Assembly: GCA_010093515.1 (NCBI GenBank)
Contig: MU001674.1
Location: forward strand, 1,389,560-1,453,559
Direction: 5' to 3'
DNA: 64,000 nt
DNA from: Lineolata rhizophorae
Taxonomy: Eukaryota; Ascomycota; Dothideomycetes; Lineolatales; Lineolataceae
The notes under the pieces were generated by a model. It was given only the letters and a program-made list of their open reading frames with translations, was not told the origin of the DNA and ran no database searches. A program made the translations under genes and the position numbers. Numbering within the stretch: the first letter of the stretch is position 1; each line of letters starts with the position of its first letter. Below, piece after piece: positions 11,492 to 47,649 of the stretch.

Positions 11492-12303
11492 AGTGCCGTT
11501 GGCAGCGCTACCGCCTCCCGCCCAGGCTCACTCTTCCGAAGTCCCCATTTGCAGCTACCCCGGCTGCACCAATCCCGCCGTCGTGTACGAGCGCCACGAT
11601 GATCCGGTTCCAACGCCGGCATCCACGCCTGAGTCTGCGCCCGCGCCGGGTCCTCTTCCCGCTGCCGCCACGGACAACGCCGCCGTCCAAAAAGCCCCGC
11701 CCAACGCCGTCGGCGCCAGCCGGCTCTGCCAGGCGTCGCTGGGACCCAACGACGCCTGGCAGGCCGAGCTGCGCAACCACATGGCGCTCTTCCGGGCGGT
11801 CATCGGCCGGGCCTCGGCGACCGCCGTGGCCGACTACGCGCGGCACTGCGCGTCGGTGGGGCTGCATCTGTGCAGCGCGGCGAGCGAGCTGGACCGCGCG
11901 TGGGCCGGGCGGGACGACGCGGTGTAGTGCGTCGAGGGGTGGAAGGAGTACGCGGACACGGCGGTGGCGGCGAACCGGCAGGCGTACGAAGCGAACGATG
12001 GGCGGCTGAGGATGCGCGTAGGGGAGCTGGAGCGTGCGCTGAGGTACAAGGAGAGGGATGTGGCGTTTTTAGCTAGGAAAATAGACGGTGCCAAAGGGAG
12101 AAGGAGAAGGAGAGAGCTAAGTGGAAGGCGGATGAGAAGGTGCTTGAGAAGAAGGAGGCGAGGATCGCGGAGTTGGATGGACTGCTGGAGAAGCGGACCG
12201 CTGTGGTGCCGGGCATGAAGACTGCAGTGGAGAAGGCGAAGGCGATGGTCGAGTAGTTGGCCGAGGCAAAGAAAGATGTTGAGACTGTTACCCTCCCGTC
12301 GCA
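11492..12303 (+). pseudogene. Decayed coiled-coil protein gene
   Basis: A plus-strand frame begins with a Pro/Ala-rich segment holding a small Cys-containing motif (ICSYPGCTNPAVVYERH), continues through an Ala-rich helical part, and ends in a long charged coiled-coil tail (for example VGELERALRYKERDVAFLA and ADEKVLEKKEARIAELDG). The frame is interrupted by an in-frame TAG near 11926, a shift of frame near 12090-12110 where the heptad-rich coding resumes in another frame, and a second TAG near 12254. The composition after each break still reads as coding, so this is a gene that has recently lost function or one with unrecognised splicing. I do not recognise the family. Confidence 0.5.
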
Positions 12304-23396: not shown

Positions 23397-26130
23397 GCTA
23401 AGCAACCTGGTGCGTTGGTGCTTGTGAGATGGAACCGGAGTATGTGATCGCGACTGCGAGGTTAAAAGGTCTTTGGCTCGGGCTTCCTTTGCAAGTTATG
23501 GCAGTAGATTAGGCTGGGCTATGTTAGGTAGCAATAGCACTTTTCTGACGGTCTATCTGAGCATGGGCTTGGAGGCTGGAGAGTGATAATACTGTCATAC
23601 ATCGGCTGTAGTCTGTAGTTCCTGTGCCACTTTACAAGGTCTCGCGCTTTAGTCGCACTTGTCACTGCATTCATAACGAGTGTCCCCCCCCCTCCCGAGG
23701 GGGGGCCTCATGGTTGGGTTGCCTTAACGTGTCGTACCTAACTCATCAAGACTTCAACTTGTTCAGACTACTTTTAAACTAATCCTGAGGTTGGGTTTTC
23801 AGTTACTGGATGACTTGCCCACAACCAACTACTCCTGTGTTCTGGACTTGCTTGGGTCCTTCACTCGGCTTGACGCAATGGATAAGCCAGCTAGACTTCG
23901 ACAACGACTGAAAGAAAGTAGGGATTACCGTTCAAGCCGAAGTACCAAACTCACATAAATGTCCAGAAGTTGCCGCCAAGTTTGGCACCTTCAATACAAA
24001 AGAGTCATTCGTTCCATTTGACAAGCTGGGCGAGGTTTCATGCCTACGGCCTACATGAGTTGAATGGTGGAAATCTGACCTTGTTTATCGTTAGGTCTGA
24101 TGTGCCTGCCTTTGCGCCACGCGGTAAAACGTGTTCGCCGAAGTAAACCCCTCTTCGAATTGCTTAAACTCGAGAGTCCGAACAGTACTCATTTGCCAGC
24201 AGGGGCGCGGTCGTGATGTTGAAGCACGTGCAAATTGTCACAGACACCCGCAGGACACGTTTGGTTGAGGCCAGTGAACCCAAGTTGTGTAAGAGCAGGG
24301 CTCGCCAGGTGAGACTGATTCGACAGTACAGGAGTGAAGGAAGAGTGACAAAGAAGGGAAAAGGAAGGGAGAAAATGCAAAGGGAGAGAAAGCGAGGGAA
24401 AGGAGGGAGATAGGGAGCTAGTGCGACGCACCCCATTTTCGCCCACTGTTGTAGGCGGCAAATGCTGATGCCTCTTCAATAGGAGTATTAATAAACCTGT
24501 GCATACCTCTCGTAGCTATCCTTATTTCTCACCCATCTAGGCTTAATCCCAGCGAGCCGTTTGCGTTCAAGATTACGTTTTCCATGCGAACGAACATACG
24601 TCATCGGATCCTTTATTTTGATAAGCTTGCCTCCGTACGGCGGCTAGCCTTGTATACAGTGTTAGAGCGATAGCGGCCTCCATTACAAGCAAAGCGATCG
24701 ACAGCGTCAACAATCCCGAGTGTGGATACAGCAACATTACAGGGGCCGAAACTTACACTGGAACGAACAAAGATGGGAGCGCCTGCGGCGAAAACTTCCC
24801 AGCTAGGTATTCTACAACAAGATTTCAACCAGTTCTGATGTTGATGTTAGCGCAGGGCACGTTCCCACGGTAGTACGAGGGAAAAGAGGATAAGGAGCTT
24901 CGTAGTGTAAGAACACGGATTCTGCGCTCTATCAGAAGGCGAGGGGGACTATTGCACTGAACCTCTACGCTAGGGTTATTTTAAAGCGGAATTTAGATGT
25001 CGTTGCTCCACCAGATCATCCATCGGTTTGCAATCTCAGGATATTCGATGCGTGATCATCACCGGGTAGATCTATGCTGCCCAAAACGGAAAACTTCGTT
25101 CTTATCGATTCCGTGGGGACAAAGGAGGTAGGCAGAAGCCGCTTTGGCTACATGAACGCTTCCTACTGGCGCTGGTACTGCTGCGCCGTTCTCAAGGTGC
25201 ACTAGGTGCGTCTTTCGGCGGCATAAGGCGCTCCAGACGGTAGTTTGCGGCTCGCGTGATATCTATCCCCCCTCGAATATCGACTCGAATATCGCTTTCC
25301 TCTCGCAAATCCGAACCGTCTGGTGGTAATACTGCCGGACTGTGTAAAGGACACCTTTGGCAGTCACCTCACGTAACAGAGTCGCCTTCCTCAGCACGTT
25401 CTAGGTGCTGCTATGAATCCTTGACGGGAAGTAGAGCCTCTGGACGTCCTTTGGGAGGGGCTTTCCAACGAGTTGTTGCTCGGCCGGCCTAGTATGCACC
25501 GCGTCCGTAGCATCACCTCGTCGATAACGATCCGCTCCGTTACACTGTCCCGCTAGACCTCGATAAAGTGCTCTTAGGTTACTGTCTTGATCGTCGGATC
25601 GAACCCCAGTTCCTCCTCGTTTATCTAGAGAAACCTAAGGATCGTGAACATAAGCTAAAGCCCATTCTTCGCTAGTACCGATTTGCTTGGATGCGACGCC
25701 AGCGAGCCGGTCAAACGCCCATACCCTCATGAGAGACCTACAGATCTGCCGACAGCTTCTCAGAGAAGTCCGCGAACCAGCTCATGAGGCGGAAGCGTCG
25801 CTGTGACCACCGCTTTGGGAGCTATGTCTATCGGCCAGATTCTGTAGCTTGTCCATTGGCGTTGCGGAATTGCGGCGGTTCAGTATGTGATGGATTCGGG
25901 ACGGTCGGTTGACAACAACTGAAATGGAGCGTCTGAAGGGCTGCGGTTCAACGCTTGCGCTACACACGTCTAAGCTGCTGAATCCATACATACATATCTT
26001 AGTGTCCATAATACAGTTCGAGAAGACATGTACATCCCACTCCATCATTGTTCATCAGGACATCTTACTGCCAGGTGAGGGGTTGAATATCCCCCCCTCC
26101 CCCAATGCACGCCGAATCCCAGCCCCTTTT
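23397..26130. other. Intergenic stretch between S4 and the acyl-CoA lyase gene
   Basis: No supported gene. A GC hairpin-like run (nine C, then TCCC, then GA and seven G) lies at 23684-23705 in the 3' flank of the S4 gene. The part from about 24500 to 25800 has a mixed composition with many stops in all frames and might be old repeat sequence, but no domain survives. A B-box-like string on the minus strand near 25597 lacks any matching tRNA stem. Confidence 0.5.
23684..23705. repeat. Poly-C/poly-G inverted run
   Basis: Nine C residues, one T, three C, the pair GA, then seven G form a run that could fold as a strong hairpin or a structured G-rich strand. It lies about 290 bp downstream of the S4 stop codon, so it could be in or just beyond the 3' UTR. 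A role as a transcription terminator is only a guess. Confidence 0.6.
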
Positions 26131-28160
26131 TCACAATTTCGGACCCCCCTTCTCTTCCTTCTCTTCGCCTTCCTCCTTCTTCTTCGACTTGCCCTGCCAC
26201 CCAAACTCCAACTCGCGCTCGGCGCCCGACCTGATGATGACATTGACCACGACGGGCCCCTCGGCCGCGAACCCCTCCACCGTCGCCCTCTCCAGCTCGT
26301 CGGGCGTCCGGGCCAGGTAGCCCTTGGCGCCCAGCGCCTCGGCCAGCCCGTCGTACCGCGTCTCGAAGCCGAGGCCGGTGGACCGGAGCCCGCCGCGGGC
26401 CGGGCCGGCGCCCGCCAGCCACGCGGCCCGCCGCCGCGCCCACCCGGCCGCCGTCTCCGCCTCGCCCCGGTACACGCCCGAGTTGTTCATGACGAAGACG
26501 AGCACGTCCATGGCGGCGCGCGCCAGCGTCTCGACCTCCATGGCGCTGAAGCCGAAGGCCGAGTCGCCCTCGATGGCCACGATCTTCTTCCTCTGCCGGG
26601 CCGGCCGCCCCGGCCCCGGGTCCGGCGCCGCCTCCACCTCGCCGTTGTACGCCGCGTGGGCCGCGACCGCGTAGCCGAGCCCGACGCCCATGGCGGCCAG
26701 GGTGCCGGCGTCGAGCCGGTGGCGCGGCGCGCCGACCCGGAACGCCGAGCGGGCGATGTCCATGGCGTTGGCGCCCTCGCTGACGTAGACGACGCGGGCA
26801 CGCTCGGGCGGGCCGGCGACGCGGTCGAGCGCGGCGCGCACGACGGCGAAGGCGCGCTCGAACGAGAGCGGCAGGCCGGCGTCGGCCGCCTTGGCCGCGG
26901 CGCGCCGGGCGTTGCGCTCCTTGGCCGCCGCCAGCGCGGCCAGGTAGGGCGGCGCGGCCTCCTCGCCGGGCGCGCCGCCGCCGCCGCCGTAGCGCCACCC
27001 CCGCAGCTGCTCCAGCAGCTGCGCGGCCACGAGCCCGACGTCGCCCTGGACGGCGAGGCCGGCGTCGGCGGCGGCGGCGCTGCGGCCGAGCTCCTCAGGC
27101 GCGAGGTCGACCTGGGCGAAGCGGGCGCCAGGGCTCCACCGCGGCGGCTCGCCGAAGTGCAGGAGCCAGTTGAGGCGGGCGCCGAGCACGAGGACGGCGT
27201 CGGCGCGGGCGAGGGCGGCGCCGCGGGCGGCGCCCGCGTCCAGCGCGTGCCCGTCGGGCAGCACGCCCTTGCCCATGGGCGTCGGCAGGAAGGGCACGCG
27301 CGTGGATTCGACGAGGCGGCGCACGGCGGCGGCGGCGGCGGGCCCGGCCGCCGCCGCTCCCTTGCCGACCACGATGAGCGGCGCCGAGGCGCCGCGGAGC
27401 AGCGCGGCCACGGCGGCGACGCGCGCCGGGTCGCCGGCGGGGCGCGGCGGCGGGGCGACGCGCGCGCCGAAGTCGACGGCGGCCGCGGGCGCGGCGGCCT
27501 GGATGAGGTCGGCGGGGAGGTCGACGAAGGATGGGCCCGGCCGGCCGTACCAGGCGTGGCGGTAGGCGGTGGCGATGGAGCGGGGGACGAGCGCGAGGGA
27601 CGCGGGGCGCAGGGCGAGCTTGGTGTGCGGCGTGAGCAGGGAGACGGCGTCGAGCTCCTGGAAGGCGCCCTTGGTGGCGAGATGGGTCTCGGAGGCGCCG
27701 GCGAGGGCGAGGAGCGGGAAGGCGTTGGCGGACGAGTTGCCGATCTGGCGGCGGGTTGGGTCTGTCAGCACCGCGAAGCTGGCCGGAGAGGCTTGCTCTG
27801 CCACGGGGGAGCCGGCGCGGCCTCGCAGCCCGGCTGGTGGAGGTGCGGCGGCGCTTGGAAACTGCGAGATCGCTGGAAACATACCCCCGCCATGGCGTGC
27901 AGCACGCCCGGCCCGCCCACGACCAGCAGCACGCCCGGCTTCCCCGTCAGGTACCCGTACGCCCCCGCCGCGTACGACGCCGCCTGCTCGTTCCGGAAGG
28001 CGATGAAGCGGATCCCCAGGTTCATCATCTGCTCCGCGACGTCGACGACGGGGATGCCGACGATGCCGAAGACGACGGTGACGCCGAGGTCGCGCAGCGC
28101 GCGGGCGATGATGTGCGCGCCATTGAGGGTGGCGGGCGGCGAGGACGACGACGACGACAT
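26131..28160 (-). CDS. 2-hydroxyacyl-CoA lyase / oxalyl-CoA decarboxylase family, TPP-dependent
   Basis: Family members cleave 2-hydroxyacyl-CoA or decarboxylate oxalyl-CoA, using thiamine diphosphate and magnesium. Exons are 28160-27885 and 27744-26131, giving 629 residues. The N-terminal domain has the catalytic glutamate in [19 protein letters not shown] (E58) and the [20 protein letters not shown] loop. The middle domain has [15 protein letters not shown] and [16 protein letters not shown]. The C-terminal domain has the TPP/Mg motif [16 protein letters not shown] followed by NNSGVY. The C-terminus ends in a Lys/Glu-rich tail with the tripeptide PKL, a weak variant of the peroxisomal targeting signal, so import into peroxisomes is likely but not proven. 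Exon 2 is extremely GC-rich with alanine runs and produces many false frames. The start ATG is followed by a run of serine codons; an in-frame frame continues upstream but lacks family similarity. Confidence 0.93.
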
Positions 28161-30590
28161 GGCGACGCCGCGGACTTCAGGTGTTTGGGACGAACAAGAA
28201 GGGTGTCGCCGAAGCTTGAGGCTGGGACGGCATGCTGCGGCGGGTTGGCGATCGATCGAGTCGGATGCCGAGGTCGGACTTCGCGCCGCAGCGCCACGGC
28301 CAGGGTGCGGCGCCACGTGCGGGCGGGCGGTGATCCTCGACGCGCAGGGCAGAGGACGCGAACGAGCAGCCAGAAGCACGCCGCACCGCCAGGCGCCCGT
28401 CGGCACAGGCCGGACTATGCTACATACGCTGGGACCTGCGTGAGCAAGGTGGCTGATCCGACATGCAGATGGAGGACGCCTGCATGGGCCAGCGTAGAAC
28501 GACGGGTGTCACTCTGCGCCACGGACTCGAAACGGCGCACGCCGGCTGCGAGGACCACCCTGGCAATAAACAGGAGAAGCTGCAGCTCGAAGACTTCAAA
28601 AAGCCCGGCTATGTTTCGACTGGAGGTTTCGGTGTTCGTTCGCTCTGCGCATTGCTCCACTCCAGCATGCCCTCCTGCTCAGCTTCTCCAGGGTTGCGGG
28701 CAGCCCAGGAAACATGGGGACAAAGTCTTCCTAGTAGTGGCTTAGCCTATACAAACGCGCAGAGTGAACGCCATAATCTACTGTAAGGCTTGCAGCCCTT
28801 TCTTTTCCTTTTTCTTTTCCTTTTTTTTTTTTTTTCGATAACCACCGCTTTATGACGCCATGGTATAATCTTACCGACTGTTCAAAAGGCCTTCAGCCGC
28901 ACCTTCTTCTCCTTGCTCGCTACAAATTGCCTTACTTCTAGATCAAAGCCCTCCAGGCGGCTTTCATCGCGTTTACATCCAGCGAGTTTGCTAGCTACCT
29001 GGTCACCATAAAATACCGCGGAAGGGGCTGCGCTTAATGGCCGGCACTTGCGGACTCCGCGCCAAGAATACGGAGCATGGATGCGGCCCTACATACGTAG
29101 CACGTACTTTCATACTTCCATGCTTACATAGGTACATGCAAGGACGTAGTCTGAGGAGGGGCAGTAGGTTGACCAGGCCACGAAGACCTGCCGGCGCTCG
29201 AGGATGCCGACCGAGACACATCCGTACACCGGTCAGGAAGAGCCGGTGTCAGCCATGCGCCGTCCTTGCAGTACCCTAGAGATCGTGGCCTACAAATAAA
29301 AACACGCTACAATTATGCTAGATGTAGGGTTATGCGGTATCTTGCGACGTACGACATAACCTCTTCACGTGAAAGCCAACCACGCTAATAGTAGGGGAAC
29401 GGAAATTCTGCGGCACCACTCCGCTTACTACAGCTTCGCCATTGATCCGCACCCTGGCGGAGCTTCAGGTAACAGTCATAAGGTAGGTAGCCGTTTGGCG
29501 AATTGCTTGCTTGTAGTTATTCGGCAGCCCTTTGCTGGTCGTTGGTATAATATGTAGAAGCCAGCCTAGCGTATAGAGGAATAGCTGATAACGCAAAAGG
29601 GTCTAGGCTCTAACGTTAGGCTATCAATGCTCTATCTACACTCTATACGCCCGTAGTTATTCAAGCCCGAGCGTCCGAAAGGCCGTAGTTTTATTCCTGC
29701 AGTATGACCAACGGTCCTTATATAGTCCATTATTCGTAGCCCTTTGGATTTACTGCTGCACTCTTCCGTTAAATCAAAACTTAGAGGCGAAACACCCTTT
29801 TAGCGATCCTTTACCGACCGTGGCAACTAGGGCTAGATTTGTTCTTATCATCCGCTAAAGTAAGAGGTGTCGCCTACAAATACTATCGCTGCAGCCCCCG
29901 TCTGAATAAGTACCTAACCTAGAATCGCTAGTACAAAGCGCCCACGATTTCGGTCCGGCTTGTAGTCCTTAGGAGCCCTGCCGACTTTCTATCCTTTCCT
30001 CTGCAATTCATCCCCTCTGGCCCCTCGCGTGCAACCGCAGGCTACTTTCGACGATATATCCGCATTTCTAGCTGGCAAGAGGACGTCTTAATGGTCATAA
30101 CTTGTCGAACGTGTACTAGCCTTTCTAACCTAACCCTCTCGTTTCGAAGAATGACAAGGATTTTCCAAAAGCCCCTAATACTCCGCTGTAGGTCTACGGG
30201 CGAGGTCAGAACGTCTACTGGAAGCAGTGCGAGCTCAGCGTTATAGACAAAGAGAGCAAGGGAAATAAAGAGACGACGGATGCCCACGAAACATGTGATG
30301 GAGAAGGAAAAGTGATCGAAGAATGATAGTATTGCATGTTATGACGAATGTAAATCTCATTCCAGCTGTACATCTTGTCTCTGATCCGCAGACCCCCTTC
30401 AAGTGCCCGACATACATTCACATACGCTCCCCTCCTCGCGCTAGGTACTCCTCGATGCGGCGCTGCCCGGCCTTCTTCCTCGCTCGCTTAGACGCACCAC
30501 GGCACGGCGACTCGTCCTCGCCATCCCTGCCGCACGCAAGACGTCAGCACACGAGAGAGCGTAACGATGCGATCGCATACCTGGTCCTTT
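28161..30590. other. Intergenic stretch with TA-rich section
   Basis: A pyrimidine tract with a run of 15 T lies at 28801-28835. From about 29280 to 30040 the sequence is rich in TpA steps and stops in every frame, which resembles old repeat DNA mutated by repeat-induced point mutation, but no element can be named. No gene is supported. Confidence 0.5.
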
Positions 30591-32472: not shown

Positions 32473-33507
32473 GCTGAGTCTTGTCTCTATCGATGCGTGG
32501 AAAATGCGTGGAGAGAAACAGTGAAGCGAATGAGAGAATTGGAGGAAGCAAAAGAGGAAGGGAATAAATAGGAATGCCTAGAGGATCATATTGCAAATTG
32601 CCTTGATAGCCGCATCGTTTGTTACATGCCACGCAAGGCTTCAGGTCAACGATGGTCACGACAACACACTACGTCCAACAATGGATCCAAAGCAGCCCTG
32701 GCTTTCCCCCTTGGTGCCTAAGGGTGCATCCCTTTGTTTGTCGACCTTGAGTTGATTGTCTACGTGGTAAAACCGACGCTCCGGGATTGTCACTTGCTTG
32801 CCTGGCAAACGGATTCCTCCAAAATGGCCTTGTGGGTGAGCAAAGATCCATGACCACCGCAAGGTACATATCAAAAAGTTCAGCCCCACAGCGGAGGAAT
32901 TGGATGCTAAGGAAGGGTTGGCTCGGGGAAGCGCTTGCCGAATGCGGAGGCAGCAACGACAGACAAAGCGATGTCGAACAAAGCAATGACAGACAAAGCG
33001 ACGACGAGCAAAGCAATTATAGACAAAGCGATGAGAGACAAAGGGATGGTTTCCCCGGGCCGGTTTCAACAAATCAGCAATGCTGAGCGCACATGGCGAC
33101 TGTAGACCTGCCACAGTATACATACGCAGTATGTAGTACTACGTAGTATTGCTGTGGCTGCCCGTGAGCTACACAGTGGCGACGCGCAGCACCTAAGATC
33201 AGTCCTAGGGTACTAACCACATGCGGGCGCCAAAAGCGATTTCTAACTGAAGGAAAGCCGTGCTGCAGAGTTTCTTTGCCAAACTGCTCTACGTCTAATT
33301 TACGTGGTTTGACCAATTACATATTCAACTCCATCCAGGGACTTTCGCCGAAAGGACAAAGGACCGGCGCAACCCAACGTCCCGCAGATAAAGGAACGGC
33401 GCGACCCAACGTCCGCAGACAACTTCCTGCTCTTCCATCGATTCCACGCCCACCCACAACCAGCCCAGAGCATTTTCACTCCCTTTACGCAATCCACTGA
33501 TCTCAGC
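32473..33507. other. Divergent intergenic region with a 30-bp minisatellite
   Basis: The FHA kinase relic reads left and the repeated-intron gene reads right from this region. It holds three 30-bp repeats (listed separately) and a pair of similar 33-34-nt blocks near 33355-33420 with the shared words aaggac/aaggaacggcg and caacgtcc. An open plus-strand frame over the 30-bp repeats (32787-33086) has no recognised domain. Confidence 0.5.
32955..33044. repeat. Three tandem 30-bp repeats
   Basis: Units at 32955-32984, 32985-33014 and 33015-33044 share the core agacaaagcga and diverge at several positions. On the plus strand they stay in one open frame and encode imperfect decapeptide repeats (SNDRQSDVEQ, SNDRQSDDEQ, SNYRQSDERQ). 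Whether this frame is translated is unknown. Confidence 0.85.
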
Positions 33508-35649
33508 ATGTCGGATTTCCCTCTCGATGCTTGGCTTCCGCCCGCGGAACTACCCGCGTGGGTATTCCTCCGCCTTCCTCCCGCCGCCCTCGTCTCGTGG
33601 GTAAAGCGAAACTATGATGCTGCTGATGGCACTGTGAACCTCAATGGTCTCCATGGTATTTCTGAGTTACCAGATGAAAAACAGGAAGAGATACATGACA
33701 GTATAGAGAGGTAGCTACGCTTATCCAACCGCATTCTTCCTCCCCTGCCACTAATGTCCAGATAGAGTCCGTGATCGCCTGGCTTTTCTTGCGAAGGCGT
33801 CATTCAAGTTTTTCGGTGACGAGCGGGAAGTTATGAGACTTGAGGAGTAGCTACACCTATCCGACCGTATTCTTTTTCCCCTAGTCGCTGATATCCAGAT
33901 AGCATCGTTGTTCGCGCGAAGGCAGATCATTCTCCTCCAGTTGAAATATCAACTGAAGAACGGTACCACTTCATGGAGAAATTCCACAGGTAGCTACGCT
34001 TATCGGACCACATTCTTCCTGCCCCAGTCGCTAATGTCAGAAAGCGCTTCTGAACACTCGCGGATTTACACGGGCATTCCGGGTACTAGGCGGTCCCCGG
34101 CAATTTCCGTGAAGGAGCTCCTCGCCCTCCCTTTCATCGAAGTCGGCAGATACATTGGCAACCAAATGCGTTCTGACGACTACCTTCATTTTCAATTCTA
34201 TGATTATTCTGCGTCATCAAATGAAAAACGGAAACAGTTCGAGTTGAAATTTCAAAGGTAGCTACGATTATCCGACAGTACTCTTCTTTCCCTAGTCGCT
34301 AAAGTCTAGATAGTGCTCTAGCTCTTCTGTTCGAACCTTCTCACCCAATCAGTGCTGTCGAACTTACTGCAGCGCTGCAAAAGCTCCAAGAAGACCAAAA
34401 ATCGTCATCCTGGTCCCCCAGATATCCACGTCGCTTTCGCCAGGAAAGCGCGTCCCCTGAAGAATCTCCAGAGCAAGTTCAGATAAAAAAATACCACGAA
34501 CTTGTCGAGGACGGTGGCCGGCCGTGGTTCTCACTCGACCGTCTCCACACTATCGCCCACGATTTCGAAAAGAACTCTGCCTTGCTTCGACCCTGGGCAT
34601 GGGACCCGGATAAACCTGGACCAGATGACTGGAAAGTCTTTGCAAGACAGGTGCACAGCTGGCGGAACTTTCGGAAGTGGCAGCGCGACAATAGACGTGG
34701 TTTCGACGAAGACGAGGAATTGGCTATCTTCTACCAAGAGATGAAGAACGATGGGTTCAATGACCAAGACCAGTTGACGTTGTTGTGGGACTTCTCATAC
34801 CGGAAGGAACGCCAATCGGAGATGAACGAACGCAGGGAGGCTGCTGCCGATCAGGGGTTCCTAGGATATGTTGAAGCAGCGAGACAACGGCTGGCAAAGC
34901 ACGGTTTCACCCAGCCATTCCAGTTCCAAGAAGACGCCGAACTCCAAGATACCTGGACGACGTGGATGGAATACATCGAGTTTAATTGCTTTTTGCTTGA
35001 CAAAGATATTCCCCGGGTAAAATCCTCACAACCAGGGTACGACGAAAAATGTAAGGCGTTAGAAGAGGCCGGGGTACTGAGAGAGAACGAGACAGTGAAG
35101 AGTATATTGACCGACGACGCGGAGTCCGCGCTCTTTCATGAATTCATTAAGGCCTTCGAAATGGAGCATGATGTCCGGTTCGGAATCCGTCGACCGGCCT
35201 CAGAAGACATTGGACCGCTACCTAGCAGCCTGCAGGAGGCAGAAGCGCTGCTCGAGACCGCCAAAAAACGTCGCGACGTCATCCACGAGTTTCGTGCTAG
35301 CTCAAGGCCCTATAGACTCGAAGAGGCGAAGATGCGCCACCACCAGGTCCTAGTGCGGTCACTCATGGAACTGGCACCTCAGATCTGGGATGAACAGGAG
35401 AAACAACGGCGGACGGCGGCGGAAAGCGGCCAGGCCGCCGCCGCCAGCGGGAAGAGGAGTCGCCAAGAGGAAGAGGAGTCGCCAAGAGGAAGAGGAGTCG
35501 CCAAGAGGAAGATCAAGAACCGCCGGCAGAGCCCAGCACAAAAAGGAGAAGAAGCGATGCGGCACAGACTACAAGCGACCAACGAGATAACGTCGATGGT
35601 TCGGTCGACACGGCGGCCGCCCATCCACAAACCGTGCCGCCACACGTAG
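33508..35649 (+). CDS. Hypothetical fungal protein with four near-identical introns
   Basis: Five exons join in frame: 33508-33710, 33766-33846, 33903-33989, 34045-34257 and 34314-35649. All four introns are phase 2 and close copies of each other. The N-terminus (MSDFPLDAWLPPAELPAWVF) and exon ends share a recurring charged pattern before each intron. The large last exon is helical and charged, with blocks such as WRNFRKWQRDNRRGFDEDE and LQDTWTTWMEYIEFNCFLLD; from memory this resembles a large fungal family often auto-labelled 'ankyrin 2,3/unc44', though I see no ankyrin repeats. The C-terminus is Lys/Arg-rich and contains a 19-bp triple repeat that sets the frame of the tail. With the three copies present the frame stops at 35649; in the frame reached with one or four copies it stays open to 36038. 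Start is the first ATG of the open frame. Function unknown; nuclear localisation is possible from the basic tail. Confidence 0.8.
33711..33765 (+). repeat. Repeated intron, copy 1 (55 nt)
   Basis: Begins GTAGCTACGCTTATCC, has a pyrimidine-rich centre and a CTAAT branch site, and ends CCAGATAG. Phase 2. Its first 15 nt are identical to copy 3. Confidence 0.9.
33847..33902 (+). repeat. Repeated intron, copy 2 (56 nt)
   Basis: Begins GTAGCTACACCTATCC, branch site CTGAT, ends CCAGATAG. Phase 2. Removing it joins a GA codon start to C and keeps the frame open. Confidence 0.9.
33990..34044 (+). repeat. Repeated intron, copy 3 (55 nt)
   Basis: Begins GTAGCTACGCTTATCG, branch site CTAAT, ends TCAGAAAG. 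Phase 2. Confidence 0.9.
34258..34313 (+). repeat. Repeated intron, copy 4 (56 nt)
   Basis: Begins GTAGCTACGATTATCC, branch-like CTAAA, ends CTAGATAG. Phase 2. The 38 nt of exon before it are clearly similar to the exon end before copy 3. Confidence 0.9.
35451..35507 (+). repeat. Three perfect 19-bp tandem repeats inside coding sequence
   Basis: The unit gaagaggagtcgccaagag occurs at 35451-35469, 35470-35488 and 35489-35507 without a mismatch. Because 19 is not a multiple of three, each copy is read in a different frame (GKRSRQE, EEESPRG, RGVAKRK) and any change of copy number by one or two changes the downstream reading frame. Confidence 0.95.
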
Positions 35650-36905
35650 ACAAGACGAGCGAACAGGCCTCGGCCGGCGTGGCTAGCGAAGGAGCGGCAG
35701 CCCAGCAGTCGACCACCGGAACGCCAAAGAAGGTGACGGGGAACCGGTGGCAGGCCTTTCGCGGCGCGCGGCGCACACCTAGCTCCAAAGCAAGGCCGGG
35801 GAGGAGTCGTGACGAATGGATGGGTTGCTTGCGGAAAAGACCGCAAGAGAAGAGGACGCAGCAGCCGACGGCGCAGGCTCGCCAGTCGGAGGAGACCCCG
35901 GGTGAAGACGAAAAGAGCCGTGTCGGCGGGGGAAAAGAAAAAAAAGAAAGGAAGAAAGCCATAAGAAGCGGCTGTCGTAGGGACCAGGATGGGACGCCAC
36001 CAAGGGGAGTTGCGAGTGGACCTAGGTCGTCGGATTGATTTTAAGCTTGGTCTTTTGCAGTAGACATGGGAGGGACTGGAGTTTTGGGCGGAACAAGATG
36101 TATACAATCTAGCATGGTCGATTTGCGTGGGGTGCTCTAAGCCTTTAATGTCTGTAGATGACGCCTTCAAATGCCTTAGTTTATGGTCGTCACGATCAGA
36201 ACGTACATTTCATTTCGCCTTCCAGGGAACTCCCCCCGCGTTAGTCAATTCGAGTAGGTCTTTGATGATATGTTCACTATCCGATCCTAAGCCAACCACA
36301 AGCGCCAGCCATCAGCAACATAGAAAACGCAATCAAAAGACGACTTTCCACCAGCGATGCGAAGAGAGAAGCAAGATGGAGCCAAACTATGAGCCTGCGC
36401 GGCTGGCGCGCTCTGGCAAAATGGCCGACCGACGATGCCTGTCATCTGTTCCGCTCTGGTGTAAATTCTGCAGTCTCTTCCATCCCTTGATCCACCTGTC
36501 AGTTCCTTTCTTCGCCGATGCCCGGGCCAAAAGGCCGCTCAAGCGCTCGGCCGTTCGGCTAGTGCCGCCGACATTGCGGCGTTGATCTATCCCAGATCGT
36601 CGTGCACCGCTGCAAGACCTCAACGTTGTTGCGCCGCTCCCAACTGACCGGTGACGGTGACGTCGTAGGCAGGGGAAGCTTCAACGCCGATAGCAGCGGT
36701 AACATCGATATCAGTGGTAACCCGTATTTCGCTGCAACAGTTAGCATTACGCGCAGCCACAACGTTAGAGAACCTACAGTTTCTTAGATTCTTTCGGATC
36801 TTTCCTGCGGTTGTCGAAGAGCGGGAGCGTATATGGCTTCTTCCGGCGACGCGAGAGACATGGGAGCAGCCGGGGAAGCACTGGCTTCTCTTCGGTAGCG
36901 AATTC
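35650..36905. other. Region downstream of the repeated-intron gene
   Basis: The first part (to 36038) carries an open plus-strand frame continuous from the 19-bp repeat, rich in Lys, Arg, Ser and Gln with KRRR and KKEKKERKK stretches; it reads as the former or alternative C-terminal end of the gene on its left. From 36039 to 36905 I see no supported gene. Confidence 0.55.
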
Positions 36906-45711: not shown

Positions 45712-47649
45712 GAAACGCTAGGACTCACAGACAATGTAGACTTTCCCCGGACGCATGATGCCGATGTGCCACTGACAAGCTCTGAAGTTGACAGAGTGAA
45801 CAGTGTTTCTCACAAGAGACAACGCATGCAAGGGACAGACTGACTTTGAGATGAGGGAATTGGGATTCCGCATGGCCGAATCTGTTCTCCCGCTCACACT
45901 CGAGCATTGTCGTGATCGTTGGAGTCGTGCTAGTTATTTAGCTCTAGTGTCTTCGCGTACTCGACACTACCTTTGGCGATTGGTATCAACAGCCACACTT
46001 GCTGCATTGCGAGGGATAAGGAGGAAAGGATGTGTTTCAAATCTGCAGCTGGATAGGGAGATATGTGCGTGCTCCCGCGAGTCGCCTGTCCTGCGAGTCG
46101 ATCGAACAACAAAGCGAAAATTTCCAGCGGCAGGACACTCTCTTCACGAAAGGCTGCAACCTATGGAAGATGAGGGTAAATGTGTTTGCTAGTACGCAGG
46201 AAACGTCGATGCCATGTCTCTTATGACTAGCAAGGACTTCTCCTATCATATCGAGGGCAAAGGTTTTGTTGCATCACTTGATGGTTCTTAGTTACTCGAC
46301 TGACCATGTTTTAGGCTAAATTCTACCCTCAATCAAGACACCACCGGATTTCCTAAGGCAGAATGACGAAGGCAAAAGAAGCTGGGGTCCAAGAGTCACT
46401 GAGAGTGGGGGACCCTTTGTTGAGATACCTTGTAAATAAATATCTTTCCCTATGAGTCGGAGAGCGCGTGAGAGAAATGGGATTATCCAGTAGCGAGTAT
46501 GACAACTAGTGCTCGGAGGTAACCTTCATGTCGCTGCGTAAAATATAAGAGCTAGTATGTGTATTAGAGTCGCTCAGAACCTACGAGCTAAAAGAAGTGA
46601 AAGGGCGCTTAACCTCAGCCTCAGCGTGTTGCTTCAAGCAATGGATCCACTAAAATCGGGAACTCCTACGTAGGGCGAGAAGGGGACTAAAACCAGGCAT
46701 CATACCTTATAGCATGAGAAGGTAACTGAGTCCAGGCATCAAACCTATAGCACGAGAAGGTAACTGAGTCCAGGTACACCCGCCACCTAACGCGAGGTGA
46801 CCAAAACTAGGCTACTTACATCCCTGGTTGGAGGTGTGGGGGCCGCGAAAGCTGGTCCGCCGCTTTTCCATGCCGAGGACGAGGAGACATCGGGCAGCGG
46901 GTGAAAGGAACCAGACCGGCAGGGCAGTGGAACGGCCCGCAAATGCCCGCGTACTCAAACATCAGCGACCGATTTTATTGGGCGTGCCAACCCAGCCTCG
47001 CTTTGAGCGACAGGCTTCATCTAGAAGTCATTCGGCTCCCACGTCTGTATTCTTCCTGCCAGGCACGAATGTCATCAGCGAGGTGCATCAAACCGTATCG
47101 GACAAGCCACGGAGCAAAGCAAGCTGCTACCGCAACTGGAGTAAGCCGACTTGGGCATTATGGTCCCGACAACTAGTTGGCAAGCAGTACATTGCTGCGG
47201 CCTTGCAATCGCTCCCGAACAGTGAGAGGCACATTTGCCACATTGTAGGCAAGAATTGATAACCCTCGTGCAAAGGCTGCTGTTCGGTGGGTCCCAATGT
47301 GCATAAATAAGTAACGGACCTTAGGTAGATGCTTTGCGTGCACTATATGCCATTGCTCATGGATTCATAGCACCCGCACCAGAGTGCGTGCACGATCGTC
47401 TTAGTGGCCAAGGAACACGCAGACGGGCGCTCGGGCTACCAGGGCGCCTTCATGTGCTCCTTGTGGCACTCTCCACCCAAGCGACGCTGTCCATTTCCAC
47501 GCCCTTGCCGTTTTCCCATCTAAGTGTTCTTCATTCGTGATTGTGATGCACTTTATTTGAATTTATATGCGCATGAAGAAAGGTCAAAGTCCTCGCATAC
47601 TAGGCAATGAAAACCGGACAGTCTACATCCTAAAGAGTATCAGAATATG
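45712..47649. other. Accessory stretch without a supported gene
   Basis: Contains a tandem pair of 39/38-bp repeats at 46692-46768 and otherwise short open frames with no recognisable domain. An open plus-strand frame at 46828-47259 is compositionally plain and I do not call it. Confidence 0.4.
46692..46768. repeat. Tandem pair of about 39-bp repeats
   Basis: Copy one (46692-46730) and copy two (46731-46768) share ccaggcatca, cctata/ccttata, gagaaggtaactgagt; a third partial start (ccagg) follows. The copies differ at a few positions and by one base in length. Confidence 0.85.

Follow-up and report, generated by a model that had tools for sequence, protein, structure and literature searches.

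Four similar phase-2 introns in one gene of Lineolata rhizophorae, probably copied together with the exon ends that precede them

Intragenic exon duplication that carries introns along gives rise to symmetric-exon repeats, a known kind of event. The gene described here shares several features with such repeats: all copies lie in one gene, the intron phase is equal, both exon and intron are similar, and the frame is kept. It differs from them in that the likeness extends over exon end and intron and barely reaches into the exon start, with intron sequence conserved no less well than exon sequence. The fungal introner-like elements (ILEs) of Zymoseptoria, Fulvia and Dothistroma are likewise seen as several similar introns, and would be possible in an ascomycete. 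Compared to those, the introns analyzed here have no further copy in the window (the whole stretch of 64,000 nucleotides of Lineolata rhizophorae DNA that was analyzed), are of about ordinary length, form no stable fold and have similar exon flanks. Regular fungal introns are 50–55 bp and ILEs are longer, as given in PMC4457414, whereas excerpts of PMC9860276 report introner families with median lengths of 30–654 nt and describe ascomycetes as an outlier in transposon signatures. The intron pairs ascribed to reverse splicing in the excerpted text of PMC3879977 are also similar introns inside one gene; here, there are four copies, they are less alike (77–84%), and their exon flanks are similar. 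Where introns of one gene resemble each other, mobile introns come to mind first, but the exon flanks at this locus speak for a more ordinary route.

The gene is located on the + strand at positions 33508–35649 of the window, where its frame is interrupted by four short stretches; when these are spliced out, a single open frame of 639 aa extends over 33508–35649. Exon 1 (33508–33710, 203 nt) ends in phase 2, and its final 50–60 nt form the exon tail of copy 1 of the putative module. It is followed by intron 1 (33711–33765, 55 nt, GTAGCTAC...CACTAATGTCCAGATAG). Exon 2 (33766–33846, 81 nt), the tail of which is the diverged copy 2 with one 6-nt gap, is followed by intron 2 (33847–33902, 56 nt), which contains the branch-like CGCTGAT and ends in AGATAG. 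Exon 3 (33903–33989, 87 nt) has copy 3 as its tail and is followed by intron 3 (33990–34044, 55 nt) with an AAG acceptor; exon 4 (34045–34257, 213 nt) matches the module (copy 4) only in its last 50–60 nt and is followed by intron 4 (34258–34313, 56 nt), again with AGATAG at the end. Exons 2, 3 and 4 are all symmetric (2-2). Exon 5 (34314–35649) encodes the remainder of the 639-aa protein and includes the stop codon. The intron coordinates, the lengths of 55, 56, 55 and 56 nt, the shared GTAGCTAC start, phase 2 in all four and the distances of 136, 143 and 268 nt between intron starts had been read from the sequence beforehand, and we reproduced them exactly. The same is true for the AGATAG ending of three introns; copies 1, 2 and 4 end in TAG, and copy 3, the exception, ends in AAG (AGAAAG).

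Judged by splice signals and frame, the four stretches are most likely introns. The alternative is that they are not introns but copies of a diverged repeat, either in a pseudogene or in a non-coding stretch, and both the AAG end of copy 3 and the donor GTAGCT fit that idea, the latter due to the missing G at position 5, where G is usual in the intron donor consensus. However, exact removal of the four stretches opens the 639-aa frame, each of them has a branch-like CTRAN near its 3′ end, and the variable intron columns are spread over the codon positions without periodicity (9, 8 and 6), which makes this explanation very improbable. If any one intron is retained, a stop follows within two codons; if splicing takes the AG that lies four bases further upstream as acceptor, a stop comes within two to five codons. 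Because all introns are of phase 2, each of the 8 skipping combinations of exons 2, 3 and 4 keeps the frame, and such exon-skipped forms, all in frame, may occur.

The introns had been described as near-identical; their likeness is real, but that wording is too strong for a pairwise identity of 77–84%. In columns of 56, the identities are 45 (pair 1-2), 47 (pair 1-3), 44 (pair 1-4), 43 (pair 2-3), 45 (pair 2-4) and 44 (pair 3-4), and outside the splice signals the introns are still 69–79% alike. As a control, we collected 39 other GT..CTRAY..YAG stretches of 48–64 nt from the same window, which are intron-like by pattern alone and not proven introns; the pattern itself recovers three of the four family introns and misses copy 4, the branch site of which is CTAAA. 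After seven overlapping pairs were dropped, the 734 control pairs gave a mean identity of 48.7% (sd 4.4%) and a maximum of 61.0%. The family likeness, 77–84% against a mean of 49% and a maximum of 61% in the intron-like stretches of the window, is more than chance. The start GTAGCTAC occurs four times in 64 kb, every time in this gene, compared to a mean of 0.30 in shuffled sequences, none of which (0/100) reached four. Searching with a four-intron profile (nhmmer), we found no fifth copy in the 64 kb; the next-best match, at 47045–47074 (E 0.044), is partial, spanning model positions 19–50 without the donor end. Scanning viral and prokaryote contigs with an intron pattern that fits copies 1 and 3 only gave one viral and three bacterial matches, by estimate no more than chance.

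The decisive evidence lies in the exons. We compared, without gaps, the 60 exon nt that precede each intron; random positions in the gene with matching phase served as the reference and gave a mean of 15.7 matches. Pairs 1-4 and 3-4 each match at 36/60 (p about 5e-5) and pair 1-3 at 27/60 (p about 0.002). The match reaches back 50–60 nt in pair 1-4 and about 50 nt in pairs 1-3 and 3-4. The sequence-only reading had seen about 38–40 nt of clearly similar exon before copies 3 and 4; that likeness holds up, but it is somewhat longer than this, and copy 2 joins it through a 6-nt gap. In pairs 1-3 and 1-4, the matching part lies between about 20 and 60 nt before the intron, and the 24 exon nt nearest the intron are near chance (9/24, p 0.16, and 10/24, p 0.08, respectively), whereas in pair 3-4 the match continues to the splice site. 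A gapped test of 50-nt exon tails gave a match in two of the six pairs only, 1-4 and 3-4.

The exon tail of copy 2 showed no match in the ungapped test, nor with a fixed gap of 9 nt (p 0.47–0.89). MAFFT alignment places a 6-nt gap in this tail. The tail was scored against a profile of exon tails 1, 3 and 4, the target and the controls being given the same choice of gaps (0, 3, 6 or 9 nt); the 6-nt match was found after the fixed 9-nt gap test had failed. When all controls were kept more than 15 nt from any intron, copy 2 outscored every one of the 575 phase-matched positions (0/575) and all but one of 1731 any-phase positions, with both tail lengths tried; while the controls still held intron-adjacent positions, its rank was 0.015–0.018 of 615. 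The self-search of the window also links exon to intron within single alignments, with much of the scores coming from the introns: 34216–34317 against 33948–34048 (76%, E 3e-14), 34197–34313 against 33650–33765 (69%, E 2e-10) and 33842–34045 against 33706–33903 (64%, E 8e-11), the last of them running through exons 2 and 3.

Past the 3′ splice site, little likeness is left: of the 24 nt that follow the intron, 6–9 match, where 6.3 are expected by chance. Exons 2 and 3 are the one exon pair of six with some signal, namely 24/60 over the 60 nt downstream of the intron (p 0.016), a local p of 0.008 for the first 40 nt, and p 0.08 in a full-length global alignment. At the protein level, among ten exon pairs only 3-4 reaches p 0.046; among six module pairs, 3-4 gives p 0.001, two are self-overlap and three show nothing. 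No internal repeat was listed when the first 230 aa were compared with themselves by blastp, and the four modules are not among the arrays reported by Tandem Repeats Finder.

The sequence-only reading had offered two explanations, mobile intron-like elements or a repeated exon-plus-intron module, and had leaned to the latter. Our results favor the module as well, on the ground that the exon tails are alike, which is not expected under independent insertions. Probably, the 5′ part of the gene grew by intragenic duplication of a module made of some 50–60 nt of exon end and the following 55–56-nt intron, and an old duplication of this known kind, not a mobile intron, is the most likely event. All four introns would then descend from one single ordinary short spliceosomal intron. 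Copying would have preserved the phase, so that exons 2, 3 and 4 (81, 87 and 213 nt) came out symmetric and the frame stayed unbroken at each addition; afterwards, the exon parts would have diverged strongly while the introns drifted to 77–84% identity. Tandem misalignment, by replication slippage or unequal crossing-over, is what we infer for the duplication itself, and the order of copying is likewise inferred. Phase 2 in four of four introns, all of them within one gene and none elsewhere in the window, supports module duplication. Against it stand the near-chance last 20–24 exon nt in pairs 1-3 and 1-4 together with the thin protein signal, and the fact that the closest intron pair differs from the closest exon pair. 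The weak likeness past the 3′ splice site also counts against it, because tandem duplication of a whole module predicts likeness there too. The several pairs in which introns are better kept than their flanks are a further point against it. These last two observations would suit an introner family inserted ready-made four times, with copies in other genes. Introners are reported in pezizomycotina fungi (PMC9860276, in excerpt), and two ILEs in a single gene are on record in PMC4457414. However, no positive support of its own kind for such a family turned up in the 64 kb: there is no further copy, although a genome family of a few hundred copies could easily miss such a window. The exon tails are alike at the same offset, a likeness that independent insertions do not predict, and an identity of 77–84% would require an old, degenerated family. 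At 55–56 nt, against 50–55 bp for regular fungal introns generally (PMC4457414), the four introns are about regular in length and not clearly longer, as ILEs are. The stable, conserved secondary structure expected of ILEs was not found in any of the four: with z-scores of +0.63 to +1.01, all of them fold less stably than the mean of their shuffles. The self-complementary GUAGCUAC might let introns pair with one another, but such pairing was no better than in single-base shuffles, 21 to 134 of 200 being as good across the six pairs. Length and structure alone do not decide the matter, because introner families as excerpted from PMC9860276 have median lengths of 30–654 nt and ascomycetes are an outlier in transposon signatures there; considering all points, we regard insertion of introners as unlikely.

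The comparison of intron with exon divergence bears on another explanation, in which the exons were already repeated before the intron was copied or homogenized among them, by reverse splicing or by gene conversion limited to the intron. The introns are more alike than the exon tails in pair 1-3, with 31/41 in the intron core against 27/60 in the tail (Fisher p 0.004). The same holds for the pairs that involve copy 2 when exons are counted without gaps (Fisher p 0.004 and below), a count that comes out too low for this copy. The closest intron pair is 1-3 (84%) and the closest exon pair is 3-4 or 1-4, so that the copies are ranked differently by intron and by exon likeness, albeit over very few sites. 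The distance is about the same in each of the six intron pairs, which also fits homogenization, and nearly identical introns in one gene have been ascribed to reverse splicing in the excerpted text of PMC3879977. On the other hand, the intron core and third codon positions show no difference in likeness in pair 1-4 (31/41 against 14/20, Fisher p 0.76) and in pair 3-4 (30/42 against 13/20, Fisher p 0.77), as simple duplication predicts, and the intron alignment offers only two parsimony-informative columns and very few bases overall. We consider this explanation improbable. It is likewise unlikely that the four form a small intron family of one repeat gene, copied or homogenized to the equivalent position, with the introns staying more alike than the exons. 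Fast exon divergence after copying and some homogenization of introns would both explain why introns exceed exons in likeness. If orthologues show introns alike while exons diverge, the gene would be a small test system for homogenization or reverse splicing. Under module duplication, which we prefer, introns and symmetric exons are added together by the copying of exon–intron modules, and the event is legible at this locus because four copies survive.

Exon 4 is longer than exons 2 and 3, and it had been proposed that an intron was missing or lost from its middle. This part of the proposal is not supported. A search with nhmmer --max found no trace of a module or an intron, and in the first 150 nt of exon 4 there is no match to the profile of the introns or to that of the exon tails. 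The spacing arithmetic fails: precise intron loss predicts starts about 217–230 nt apart (a module of 136–143 nt plus an exon of 81–87 nt), versus the observed 268, and reading 268 as 2 x 134 would need the intron to be still present as exon. Most simply, the greater length of exon 4 has some other cause.

For the 639-aa protein, no Pfam family scored above its curated cut-off; PA2201_N (E 0.0055, 17 bits versus a cut-off of 27) and DUF5490 (E 0.19, 12.2 bits versus 27) were rejected. Sequence search against solved structures gave no match up to E 0.1, and the frame 34303–35646, folded alone, reached a mean pLDDT of 48.7, too poor for a fold search. No second copy of the gene is present in the window, the best outside tblastn match having E 0.18. 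A 176-aa part of exon 5 has no relatives in viral or prokaryote contigs, and no description of the gene was found in the titles and abstract openings of the literature searched. The Rfam scan for a known RNA hosted by the introns, which covered 32500–36500, returned SNORD75 as its sole match (34020–34076, opposite strand; 17.7 bits versus a cut-off of 50, E 0.61), and this was taken as chance.

Small tandem duplications do occur at the locus, because three of the window's small tandem arrays fall within 2.6 kb at the gene, one of them inside the coding sequence; this is in favor of module duplication. The array in the coding sequence is a 19-nt tandem repeat at 35450–35512 (+ strand) inside exon 5, with 3.3 copies and 100% matches. 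Since 19 nt is no whole number of codons, a change in copy number would alter the C-terminal reading frame. The two short arrays just upstream of the gene are located at 32952–33048 and 33358–33419, with units of 15/30 nt and 32 nt. Elsewhere, the window holds fungal-type genes, including an RNA-dependent RNA polymerase (PF05183, E 1e-193), an FHA-domain frame and an F-BAR/RhoGAP frame. The region 25891–28443 is G+C-rich (75.6% over 26001–28000), has long overlapping open frames on both strands and shows weak direct and inverted self-similarity. The self-search of the window also detected an imperfect self-inverted stretch of 164 nt at 11667–11830 (67%, E 9e-8), and one further tandem repeat, with a unit of 38–39 nt in about two copies, is located at 46676–46774.
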